Assembly (NCBI RefSeq): GCF_000744815.1
Contig: NZ_JQMQ01000005.1
Span: 4,658,055 to 4,722,054, forward strand
Length of the DNA: 64,000 bases
Direction of reading: 5' to 3'
Source of the DNA: Phaeacidiphilus oryzae TH49
GTDB taxonomy: Bacteria; Actinomycetota; Actinomycetes; Streptomycetales; Streptomycetaceae
A program made the translations under genes and the position numbers. How positions within the stretch are numbered: position 1 is the first letter of the stretch; every line of letters begins with the position of its first letter. A model generated the notes under the pieces. The model was not told the origin of the DNA and searched no databases. It saw only the letters and a list, made by a program, of their open reading frames with translations. This document shows, piece by piece, positions 41,698 to 45,186 of the stretch.

Positions 41698-42312
41698 GTG
41701 ACCGATCGTCAGAAACTGGTGCTGGCCACCCGCAACCACGGCAAGATCCGCGAGCTGAGGGTGATCCTCGGGGAGTCGGGCCTGGACGTCGACCTGGTCG
41801 GCGCGGACGACTACCCGGAGGTCCCCGACGTCAAGGAGACCGGGGTGACCTTCGCCGAGAACGCGCTGCTGAAGGCGCACGCGCTGGCGAAGGCCACCGG
41901 GCTGCCGGCGGTCGCCGACGACTCCGGGCTGTGCGTGGACGTGCTGGGCGGGGCGCCGGGGATCTTCTCCGCGCGGTGGGCCGGGCGGCACGGCGACGAC
42001 ATCGCCAACCTGGAGCTGCTGCTCGGGCAGCTCTCCGACATCGCGCAGGAGCACCGGGCCGCGCACTTCGCCTGCGCGGCGGCGCTGGCGCTGCCGGACG
42101 GGACGGAACGCGTCGTCGAGGGCCGGATGCCGGGCAGCCTCGCCTTCGCCCCGCGGGGCGCGAACGGCTTCGGCTACGACCCGATCCTGATCGTCGAGGA
42201 CGACACCCGCACGGCGGCCGAACTGACCCCCGAGGAGAAGAACGCGATCTCCCACCGGGGGAAGGCGTTCCGGGGGCTGGCGGTGGTGGTGGGGGAGTTG
42301 CTGGGGGGCTGA
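41698..42312 (+). CDS. rdgB: dITP/XTP pyrophosphatase (RdgB/HAM1)
   Basis: Removes non-canonical purine nucleotides (dITP, XTP) from the pool. The 204-residue product shows LVLATRNHGKIRELRVIL, VADDSGLCVDVLGGAPGIFSARWAG, NGFGYDPILI and ISHRGKAFRGL, the conserved HAM1 blocks. GTG 41698 is in the expected place after rph. A strong hairpin follows. Confidence 0.96.
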   Translation: MTDRQKLVLATRNHGKIRELRVILGESGLDVDLVGADDYPEVPDVKETGVTFAENALLKAHALAKATGLPAVADDSGLCVDVLGGAPGIFSARWAGRHGDDIANLELLLGQLSDIAQEHRAAHFACAAALALPDGTERVVEGRMPGSLAFAPRGANGFGYDPILIVEDDTRTAAELTPEEKNAISHRGKAFRGLAVVVGELLGG

Positions 42313-42347: not shown

Positions 42348-42354
42348 CCCGGGG

Positions 42355-42437
42355 TGCGGCCTGAGGGACTCGAACCCTCACGGATGCTATCCACAAGGAC
42401 CTAAACCTTGCGCGTCTGCCAGTTTCGCCAAGGCCGC
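42355..42437 (-). tRNA. tRNA-Leu (anticodon UAG)
   Basis: Read on the minus strand, the acceptor stem GCGGCCT/AGGCCGC closes the molecule. The anticodon stem CAAGG/CCTTG holds the loop TTTAGGT with anticodon TAG. A long variable arm is present and the T arm is GAGGGTTCGAGTCCCTC. The long variable arm and anticodon identify Leu (CUA codons). CCA is not encoded. An HNH nuclease gene lies just upstream on the same strand. Confidence 0.93.
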
Positions 42438-42480
42438 AGGTTCGCGGCCCCATCCTATGTGCTGGAGCTGAGGGGCGGCA

Positions 42481-43476
42481 TCAGACGGAGGGCTTCCGGC
42501 GGCAGTAGGTGTCGGTGGTGGCATGGCAGTTCGGGCAGAGCAGCCGCAGGTTCTCCCGCCGGTTGTCCAGCCAGTCCCCGTTGACGTGGTCGATCTCGAG
42601 GGCCAGCGGCCTGCCTCGCCACTCCGGGCCCTGGCCGCAGTCGACGCAGAGGTACGGCACGCCGGTCTTGAGGAGCGCGGCGAGCAGCGGCCTCCGGGAC
42701 GGTCGGGCCGAACCGGCGGGCCGGACGCAGAGGACCTCGGCCGGCGGCTTCCGCCGGTGGGCGCCCCGGTCGATGTCGCCGGAACGGCCGGTGAAGTGGC
42801 CGGTGGCCAATCCCGTGCGCTGGATCGCGGTACGCAGCCGGCGATGCTCGTGGGGCGTGGTCGGCAGGTCCAGCGCGCGGAGTACCTCGGCGTAGCTGGT
42901 GGACCTGGCCACCAGTTCCGCCAGGAGCTCCGGCGGGACCCGGTGGCGGGCACCGCCGCCGTAGGTGAAGTGCGAGGTGTCGATCCGGAGTTCGGCGATG
43001 GTGCGCTTGAGGACCCCGCGGCTGGCCTGATCGTCGCCGAGGCCGAGCCGGCGGGCGACACCGCGGTAGCTGGATTCCGCGGCGACCGCCGTACGCAGGG
43101 CCTCGGGCGGCAGGTCCAGGGTGGGGCGCCCGGGGCGCATGGCGGGGAAGCGGCCCTCCAGGCCGAGCCGCTTGACGCGTCGGCTCAGATGGCTGAGGGT
43201 GCCGCTGGCCGGGACGGCGCCGAGGGCGAGAGCGAGCTCCCGCAGGGTGCCGGACTCGGCGACGGCGGCGGTGATGGCGGCGTCGGTGTAGCGCGTCCAG
43301 GGGCTGCGCTGCTTGAAGTGGCTGGTGTCGATGGCGAACTCGGCCGCCAGTCTCTGGAGCTGCGTGCGCAGGCCGCCGCTCTCCCGGCGGCCGAGTCGGC
43401 GGATCAGGTCGGACCAGTTGGCGGAAGCGGCGGCGGCCGCGGCGAGCTCCTCGCGAGTGCAGGTGGCGGTGCGCAT
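42481..43476 (-). CDS. HNH endonuclease with four N-terminal repeat modules
   Basis: A 331-residue protein. The C-terminal HNH domain (about 272-331) has paired Cys and the signature LEIDHVNGDWLDNRRENLRL followed by LCPNCHATTDTYC, with zinc-binding CVDCG upstream. The first 240 residues contain four degenerate modules of 50-60 residues, each with an S-x-x-x-x-x-LG helix-turn and ending in FAIDTSHF, LGLEGRF, LRIDTSHF or LATGHF. They probably bind DNA. The start ATG 43476 has GGAGGG upstream. It lies beside tRNA-Leu. It could be a domesticated mobile nuclease or a phage-defence enzyme. Confidence 0.88.
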   Translation of the reverse strand: MRTATCTREELAAAAAASANWSDLIRRLGRRESGGLRTQLQRLAAEFAIDTSHFKQRSPWTRYTDAAITAAVAESGTLRELALALGAVPASGTLSHLSRRVKRLGLEGRFPAMRPGRPTLDLPPEALRTAVAAESSYRGVARRLGLGDDQASRGVLKRTIAELRIDTSHFTYGGGARHRVPPELLAELVARSTSYAEVLRALDLPTTPHEHRRLRTAIQRTGLATGHFTGRSGDIDRGAHRRKPPAEVLCVRPAGSARPSRRPLLAALLKTGVPYLCVDCGQGPEWRGRPLALEIDHVNGDWLDNRRENLRLLCPNCHATTDTYCRRKPSV

Positions 43477-43707: not shown

Positions 43708-45186
43708 ATGGGACGCACGAGAGGGTGGGGCGCCACCGGCCTCGCGCTCGCGCTGGTCGCGGGCGGCGGAGTGGGGCTGCTGGCGTTCAGTGGCGGCGCC
43801 GCCCGCGCCGACAGCGTGCAGCTGCTGGCCAACGGCGGGTTCGAAAGTGGGACGTTGAGCCCCTGGAACTGCTCGGCGGCGGACGCGGTCGTCGGTTCGC
43901 CGGTCGAGGACGGGAGTGGGGCGCTCGCGGGCAGCGCCTCGGCGAGCGATGACGCGCAGTGCGCGCAGACCGTCGCGGTCGCGCCGAACTCGACGTACAC
44001 CCTCAGCGGCGAGGTGGAGGGGAACTACGTCTACCTCGGCGACAGCGGTACGGGGACGAGCGACACCAGTGCCTGGACGCCCGGCAGCGGCGGCGGCTGG
44101 CAGCGGCTGTCGACCACCTTCACGACCGGGGCGGACACCACCTCGGTGACGGTCTACGTCCACGGGTGGTACGGGGAGGGCACGTTCGGGGCGGACGACC
44201 TGTCGTTGGTCGGACCCAGTGGGGGGACTTCGCCGACGCCCACCCCCACCTCGACCTCCGGCTCGACGACGCCGCCCCCCGCCGATCCCGGCTTCGCGCA
44301 TCCGGTCTACTTCATGCCGCTGGACAACAGCCCCCAGGCGGTCGGCGACATCGTCTCCGGCAGCGGGGAGAACGAGTTCCTCCTCGCCTTCGTGCTGGAC
44401 TCGGGCGGATGCACGCCCGCCTGGGACGGGGACGCCGCGCACACGGTGGCCTCGGACACCGCCGTCGCGGCCGACGTCCAGGCGATCCGCGCGGCCGGCG
44501 GGGACGTCGGCGTCTCCTTCGGCGGCTACAACGGCACCGAGCTGGGCTCCTCCTGCGGATCGGCCTCGGCCCTCGCCGCCGCCTACCAGCAGGTGATCGA
44601 CAAGTACCAGCTCACCCGGATCGACCTGGACTGGGAGAACACCGCGCTGGACAGCGGCATGGAGGTGCGGTGGGGCGCGATCAAGCAGCTGGAGGCGGCG
44701 AACCCGAGCCTGAAGGTCTCCCTGACCATTCCGATGACCAGCGTCGGGCTGCCGGACACCGGCAAGGACGAGATCCGGCAGGGGATCGCGGACGGTGCCC
44801 GGATCGACCGGGTGAACATCATGGACTTCGACTTCGGGCTGACCTCCGGGACGGAGACGCAGGCGGCCGAGACCGTCGCCGACGACGTCAACGGTCAGCT
44901 GACGGCGCTCTTCGGCTGGGACTCGGCGACGGCCTGGGCGCACACCGGGATCCAGCTGATGAACGGCCACACCGACCAGCCGAGCGAGCTGTTCACCCAG
45001 AGCACCTTCACCGACCTGCTGGCCTTCGCCCAGTCCAAGCACGTCGCCCAGTTCTCCTACTGGGACGTGAACCGGGACCGGGTCTGCGATCCGAGCGTGC
45101 CGCACAACTGGGCGGACGGGGCCTGCAGTTCGGTCGACCAGAGCCCGTACGACTTCACCAGGACCATCACCCGGTACACCGGTTGA
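43708..45186 (+). CDS. Secreted GH18 chitinase with N-terminal carbohydrate-binding module
   Basis: A 492-residue exported glycosidase. The signal peptide ends about residue 35 (GGAARADSVQLL). A jelly-roll module similar to CBM16/CBM4_9 follows (NGGFESGTLSPWNC ... GADDLSLVG, about 35-172), then a Thr/Pro linker, then GH18. The catalytic motif is RIDLDWEN, with Glu present. Blocks such as FGGYNGTEL and GDVGVSFGG resemble the other chitinase in this window, so the catalytic domains are related while the binding modules differ. ATG 43708 follows a GGGAG-type site. The promoter carries a DasR-like box. Confidence 0.92.
   Translation: MGRTRGWGATGLALALVAGGGVGLLAFSGGAARADSVQLLANGGFESGTLSPWNCSAADAVVGSPVEDGSGALAGSASASDDAQCAQTVAVAPNSTYTLSGEVEGNYVYLGDSGTGTSDTSAWTPGSGGGWQRLSTTFTTGADTTSVTVYVHGWYGEGTFGADDLSLVGPSGGTSPTPTPTSTSGSTTPPPADPGFAHPVYFMPLDNSPQAVGDIVSGSGENEFLLAFVLDSGGCTPAWDGDAAHTVASDTAVAADVQAIRAAGGDVGVSFGGYNGTELGSSCGSASALAAAYQQVIDKYQLTRIDLDWENTALDSGMEVRWGAIKQLEAANPSLKVSLTIPMTSVGLPDTGKDEIRQGIADGARIDRVNIMDFDFGLTSGTETQAAETVADDVNGQLTALFGWDSATAWAHTGIQLMNGHTDQPSELFTQSTFTDLLAFAQSKHVAQFSYWDVNRDRVCDPSVPHNWADGACSSVDQSPYDFTRTITRYTG

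Follow-up and report, generated by a model that had tools for sequence, protein, structure and literature searches.

A chromosomal HNH endonuclease gene of probable homing type that appears to be exchanged together with a hypervariable tRNA-Leu(UAG) gene in Streptomycetaceae

Introduction

Transfer RNA genes are a textbook case of slow evolution, and homing endonucleases in phage tRNA regions are already known. The three HNH endonucleases of phage T5 are reportedly located in its tRNA gene region (PMC3326045). F-TflIV (HegA) is called site-specific in the title of the original paper, and F-TflII reportedly introduces single-strand breaks in DNA (PMC6105707). SegB of T-even phages, another free-standing endonuclease adjoining tRNA genes, reportedly cuts inside DNA that carries tRNAs and amplifies the tRNA genes next to it (PMC13096335). 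Here we analyze a 64,000-nucleotide stretch, called the window below, from Phaeacidiphilus oryzae TH49 (Streptomycetaceae; contig NZ_JQMQ01000005.1, positions 4,658,055 to 4,722,054), in which a gene for an HNH endonuclease with four helical modules lies next to a tRNA-Leu(UAG) gene. A preliminary description had proposed a sequence-specific nuclease, serving homing or phage defence or left as a mobile remnant at a tRNA site. Absent from it was our main point, that the tRNA itself is hypervariable and appears to be exchanged together with the nuclease gene.

Results

The HNH gene and its tRNA partner

The two genes and the putative promoter element between them are placed as follows in the window.

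42481..43476, minus strand: HNH endonuclease gene, 331 amino acids plus stop, with four helical modules and an HNH domain (open reading frame (ORF), Pfam and PHROG matches)
42352..42438, minus strand: tRNA-Leu(UAG), the hypervariable partner of the HNH gene (tRNA search, alignments)
42452..42457, minus strand: putative -10 box (TAGGAT) of the tRNA's own promoter, between the HNH stop codon and the tRNA (TANNNT conservation)

The HNH gene, present as a single copy in the 7.8-Mb genome, is free-standing, i.e. outside any intron or intein. It lies upstream of the tRNA on the same strand, with a gap of 42 nt from its stop codon. The UAG anticodon of this tRNA is the only one found among the type II tRNAs of the window genome. 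The cognate codon is very rare, CTA accounting for 2 of 13,635 codons in the window ORFs; TTA is equally rare (2/13,635). In nearly all of 97 family genomes, a TANNNT box precedes the tRNA by 12-25 nt, against a background of 0.9% per 21-nt window. Having kept a -10 box of its own, the tRNA is more than a product of read-through from the HNH gene.

tRNA-Leu(UAG) is constrained, yet changes fast in sequence

Across the family, tRNA-Leu(UAG) was 58-84% identical to the window copy (median 72%), whereas the control tRNA-Leu(CAG) of the same genomes was 98-100% identical to its counterpart in the window genome in about 90 of 101. The tRNA encoded by bldA was 83-94% identical to that of the window genome where found, though this control is imperfect, bldA being a developmental regulator tRNA with a regulatory role of its own. 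Codon rarity alone is therefore insufficient as the cause of the variation, because bldA reads an equally rare codon and is more conserved. In ten genomes of genus g14 (G013, G035, G040, G044, G048, G056, G064, G080, G083 and G086), the search with bldA, the tRNA-Leu(UAA) gene of the window genome, gave nothing, whereas other members of that genus had a match.

tRNA-Leu(UAG) is a constrained tRNA with a fast-changing sequence. Of 1649 pairs in the acceptor, anticodon and T stems, 1645 are kept (99.8%). All 97 tRNAs have the UAG anticodon and A73, the latter count leaning on the trimming of the sequences at a terminal A, and the T loop is nearly constant. Among the same 97 genomes, the D-arm occurs in 70 distinct sequences and the anticodon stem in 38, and the variable arm also changes freely. 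In 30 of the 97 tRNAs, a 5-nt variable region replaces the long arm typical of tRNA-Leu, the tRNA-Leu-like D-arm being kept on inspection. The short-arm form was commoner with the HNH gene (26/62) than without it (4/35; Fisher p = 0.0025, to be taken as indicative because the genomes are related). Short tRNA-Leu beside HNH genes also occurs with UAA, CAA and CAG anticodons; tRNA-Leu genes of 74-78 nt without the long variable arm, with one of these anticodons or with UAG, were seen at L119, L120, L217, L224, L233, L236 and other loci. The tRNA-Leu(UAG) of phage mistaenkt (L243) measures 77 nt.

Nuclease and tRNA genes appear to pass between species together

To compare allele exchange across the family, in which the window's genus is represented by one genome, the convergent neighbour of the tRNA was used as a reference.

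41698..42312, plus strand: rdgB, conserved reference flank outside the exchanged unit (sequence comparison)

A homologue of the HNH gene is carried by 63 of the 101 family genomes. At the rdgB loci, 62 of 101 have it (53 as an ORF with HNH motifs, the others as fragments) and 39 do not. The distance between tRNAs did not track the distance between the corresponding rdgB genes (rho 0.07). HNH and tRNA distances were weakly correlated, beyond permutation, after removal of the rdgB distance (partial correlation 0.16; 0/2000 permutations).

Close relatives with 92-97% identical flanks bear unrelated HNH-tRNA units. In L117 and L120, where the flanks are about 97% identical, an unrelated block spans from about 1.2 kb before the tRNA to about 50 nt after it; within this block, the HNH core is 43% and the tRNA 65% identical, and one tRNA measures 86 nt and the other 75 nt. 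Block replacement of this kind was also found in L174/L190, L131/L133 and L166/L167. Among non-overlapping pairs with at least 90% identical rdgB DNA, the tRNA differed in 11 of 12 pairs in which both members had the HNH gene, as compared to 0 of 3 in which neither did (p = 0.009). An empty site was also found: L200 and L190 share a tRNA allele, but about 1.2 kb present immediately before it in L190 is missing from L200. Other loci hold tandem HNH genes, or an intact copy together with a decayed one. Tandem genes, fragments and empty sites fit a cycle in which a homing gene is gained, decays and is lost.

The nuclease gene follows the tRNA rather than the chromosomal site

The tRNA neighbour already mentioned in the preliminary description proved meaningful. 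tRNA-Leu(UAG) adjoins the gene at all 73 homologous loci first fetched. The family contributed 30 of these loci, and a species-wide contig collection the other 43, among them those of three metagenome-assembled genomes of other lineages, named Frankiales, Kofleriaceae and Myxococcales. The distance from the stop codon to the tRNA ranges from -10 to 107 nt among homologues. In other actinobacterial families a tRNA gene was close by at 23 of 24 loci, the sole exception sitting at a contig end. The tRNAs at these 23 loci were Leu(UAA) in 8, Leu(CAA) in 7, Leu(CAG) in 1, Leu(UAG) in 1, Gln in 4 and Thr in 2; at 16 non-family loci, tRNA-Leu begins 9-106 nt past the match, on the same strand. This linkage is beyond chance, as the background is only about one tRNA per 80-130 kb.

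In L126, L178, L193, L194 and L202, the tRNA is displaced from rdgB or inverted relative to it, and the HNH gene still adjoins the tRNA. As the linkage follows the displaced or inverted tRNA, the partner of the HNH gene is the tRNA and not the rdgB site. Other arrangements were also seen. The HNH relatives of L222, L230, L238 and L239 adjoin tRNA-Gln; in L222 and L230 this tRNA is 5' of the nuclease gene. In genus g19 (L241, L242) the order is reversed and the tRNA a different one: tRNA-Thr(UGU) is followed, after about 225 nt, by a shorter HNH relative. In L204, L206 and L209 (genus g4), neither tRNA-Leu(UAG) nor an HNH gene was found within about 5.5 kb of rdgB, and their tRNA-Leu(UAG) may be elsewhere or missing.

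Four helical modules precede an intact HNH domain

The four tandem modules and the HNH domain that follows them are placed as follows (all on the minus strand).

43315..43455, minus strand: module 1, residues 8-54, ending in IDTSHF (hidden Markov model (HMM) cross-hits, AlphaFold2, single-module model)
43144..43287, minus strand: module 2, residues 64-111, with the degenerate end LEGRFP (HMM cross-hits, AlphaFold2)
42967..43110, minus strand: module 3, residues 123-170, ending in IDTSHF (HMM cross-hits, AlphaFold2)
42793..42936, minus strand: module 4, residues 181-228, ending in LATGHF (HMM cross-hits, AlphaFold2)
42502..42663, minus strand: HNH nuclease domain, residues 272-325, with CxxC and IDHVNGDW..DNR..NL..LCPNCH (Pfam, homologue alignment)

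The four repeats of about 50 residues are real. HMMs were built for single module positions from 20-21 homologues and run on the other positions, with 1000 shuffles as a control. The module 1 HMM scored 32.3 bits on module 4 (E 3e-12; shuffle maximum 4.9 bits) and the module 4 HMM 34.4 bits on module 3 (E 1e-12; shuffle maximum 4.6 bits). Module 2 is the most degenerate, being without the DTSHF ending, and some of its cross-hits fail to exceed the shuffle maximum. AlphaFold2, run with 22 sequences, predicted four three-helix units, separate from each other, ahead of the HNH domain (mean predicted local distance difference test score (pLDDT) 76.9, predicted template modelling score 0.29), the packing between the units not being confident. 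A lone module was modelled with the same three helices (pLDDT 84.6). The predicted modules are thus independent of each other and separate from the nuclease domain, rather than parts of one globular fold, which bears out the architecture given in the preliminary description. No significant match to a solved relative of the window protein was obtained by sequence or by fold search. The weak PDB matches of the module model (E>4) were mostly winged or helix-turn-helix DNA-binding domains of the LysR, DtxR and DeoR types, a resemblance to DNA-binding folds that is only suggestive.

At the C-terminus, the protein weakly matches Pfam HNH (E 2.4e-4) and HNH_3 (E 4.8e-5). The HNH residues and the CxxC motif are intact in it and nearly invariant among 22 four-module homologues, and HNH motifs were found in the 53 homologous ORFs adjoining tRNA. 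With intact residues and a patchy distribution (63 of the 101 genomes), the gene does not look like an ordinary core gene with a mutated HNH domain.

Relatives in phages include T5 HegA

Relatives of the window protein were found in 185 phage records; a scan of viral contigs with single-protein patterns gave no relative, whereas annotated phages did. PHROG 10822 ('HNH endonuclease') matched the whole window protein across several stretches (E 8.9e-68). Of four T5 homing endonucleases examined, HegA (F-TflIV) matched the window protein (E 1.3e-13) and the others share the HNH motif only. Phage homologues have one module (none detected in PHA46) and bacterial homologues up to four.

Twelve of the 14 phage loci examined are beside a tRNA gene, most within tRNA arrays. 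The HNH gene lies 1 nt before tRNA-Leu(UAG) in Escherichia phage mistaenkt, overlaps it in Vibrio phage D69, closely precedes it in phiPsa347, immediately follows it in GodonK and is convergent with it in Atu_ph07. Other tRNAs stand beside the HNH gene in Francesca, Smoothie, Bop, LCK69, V45v66, PHA46 and one uncultured phage, so that phage copies adjoin many kinds of tRNA, e.g. Gly, Asn and Glu.

Neighbouring genes

On reading, the ORFs around the HNH gene encode a GH18-like protein and the housekeeping genes rdgB and rph. The first of these is divergent from the HNH gene.

43708-45186, divergent from the HNH gene: secreted GH18-like (chitinase-type) protein (translation read)

In the HNH-free genome L161, a related chitinase-like gene (translation read) is also found upstream of the tRNA.

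Discussion

We consider it probable that the window gene is a free-standing HNH homing endonuclease of the phage tRNA-array family, which moves with a rare-codon tRNA gene and replaces it as a mobile allelic cassette; the unit is possibly a natural cleave-and-rescue element. A sequence-specific nuclease of the homing type, as first proposed, is still the best reading. The gene is no remnant, however, and there is no sign of phage defence. The preliminary description knew of no named system with this architecture, but named relatives exist in PHROG 10822 and T5 HegA/F-TflIV. With these, the window protein shares HNH homology with intact catalytic residues, the lack of an intron or intein, and a patchy pattern of intact, decayed and empty sites; block replacement and phylogenetic discordance indicate horizontal movement with flanking DNA into an allelic site. 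The phage genes are homologous and free-standing as well, within the phage tRNA gene region. They differ in having one helical module, or none detected, instead of four. Unlike them, the window gene is chromosomal; the tRNA gene next to it is the only one found to decode CUA, and the two appear to be exchanged jointly. SegB differs further, having a GIY-YIG fold unrelated to HNH, being restricted to phages and having no hypervariable cellular tRNA.

In the mechanism that we propose, the helical modules would recognize a DNA site within rival tRNA-Leu(UAG) alleles or next to them, and the HNH domain would nick or cut it. Repair from the incoming cassette would then install the HNH gene with its own tRNA, which would escape cleavage through its divergence. 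The linked tRNA would thus both provide immunity and keep CUA, a very rare codon, readable; tandem HNH genes, fragments and empty sites would be the traces of repeated invasions. Synthetic cleave-and-rescue gene drives combine a nuclease with a linked recoded copy of its target, using protein-coding targets and a guide-RNA nuclease; they share the logic that we infer for the window unit. The linked tRNA keeps its fold, anticodon and A73 despite its hypervariable sequence, and it may be resistant to the nuclease. More tentatively, this may be a bacterial cleave-and-rescue system, in which the multi-module HNH enzyme destroys rival single-copy tRNA-Leu alleles and the linked recoded tRNA is immune. 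The resulting arms race would have diversified the tRNA and repeatedly removed its long variable arm, and the modules would form an array for DNA recognition that can expand and is tuned to the tRNA gene sequence.

Several observations weigh against the homing cassette. The HNH-tRNA correlation is weak in size, the close pairs without HNH number three, and looser cut-offs weaken the significance of that comparison (p 0.05-0.06). Diverse tRNA alleles also occur in HNH-negative genomes, so that linkage to the HNH gene is not needed at every moment. Finally, Septu, an HNH-nuclease system, can cut tRNA instead of DNA (PMC13096335).

An ordinary homing endonuclease with a hitchhiking tRNA is a rather unlikely alternative that deserves consideration. 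The cleavage site would merely be near the tRNA and co-conversion would spread the alleles, the tRNA being neither target nor antidote and varying since CUA codons hardly occur. Free-standing phage endonucleases are known to co-convert flanking DNA when they home (PMC13096335), and both the rarity of CTA in the window ORFs and the varied alleles of HNH-negative genomes agree with this idea. Yet TTA is just as rare and bldA, if an imperfect control, is better conserved; the near-complete stem pairing and the invariant A73 and UAG reveal strong constraint on the tRNA. Moreover, other families and phages have the same nuclease beside other tRNAs, and therefore the tRNA itself seems to matter.

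Alternatively, the HNH protein could act at the RNA level as a toxin cleaving tRNA-Leu molecules, for instance in the variable arm, with the linked diverged tRNA as a resistant antidote. The enrichment of short-arm tRNA-Leu beside HNH genes, which recurs with UAA, CAA and CAG anticodons, would agree with this, and Septu is a precedent for cleavage of the tRNA molecule. Like the case proposed here, PtuB of Septu and the HNH protein of retron-Eco7 are HNH nucleases in systems that act on type II tRNA, and a phage tRNA with a distinctive variable loop escapes their action (PMC13096335). We nevertheless find a toxin-antidote pair improbable: F-TflIV, the closest relative, is reported as a site-specific endonuclease, at least in the title of its description, and F-TflII as DNA-nicking (PMC3326045, PMC6105707). 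Septu also needs the PtuA ATPase, and no PtuA was seen next to the window gene. Furthermore, the phage copies adjoin many kinds of tRNA, and more than half of the HNH-linked tRNAs keep the variable arm.

An anti-phage or regulatory nuclease for which the tRNA-Leu locus is merely an integration hot spot is very improbable: although tRNA genes are common integration sites and PADLOC lists homing-endonuclease and ZorE HNH matches, these matches span the HNH domain only, neither an integrase nor a defence partner was seen among the neighbouring ORFs, and the HNH gene is 5' of the tRNA, whereas most integrases use the tRNA 3' end. The reading as a defence system was rejected. PADLOC and NCBIfam yielded HNH-domain matches only, among housekeeping neighbours; the match to Zorya ZorE was confined to the HNH part and reached 14 bits against a cut-off of 600; PADLOC gave no Septu match for the HNH protein, and no PtuA ATPase was found among the neighbouring ORFs.

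A partial literature search, covering few subscription journals, gave no paper linking such a nuclease to a hypervariable tRNA-Leu(UAG), nor any on a chromosomal family tied to rare-codon tRNA genes, on replacement of the tRNA with it or on module expansion. In the family studied here, a tRNA gene that is apparently alone in decoding one sense codon seems to be replaced wholesale, along with a nuclease gene, between close species, and in places it has lost the variable arm that defines tRNA-Leu. The locus also provides a natural collection of diverse tRNA-Leu genes, probably functional, and a nuclease built of modules, for which a comparison across many linked nuclease-tRNA pairs could reveal the DNA specificity. 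If our reading is true, the translation machinery of cellular genomes would likewise be reshaped by homing endonucleases of the kind known from phage tRNA arrays, and synthetic cleave-and-rescue drives would have a counterpart in nature.
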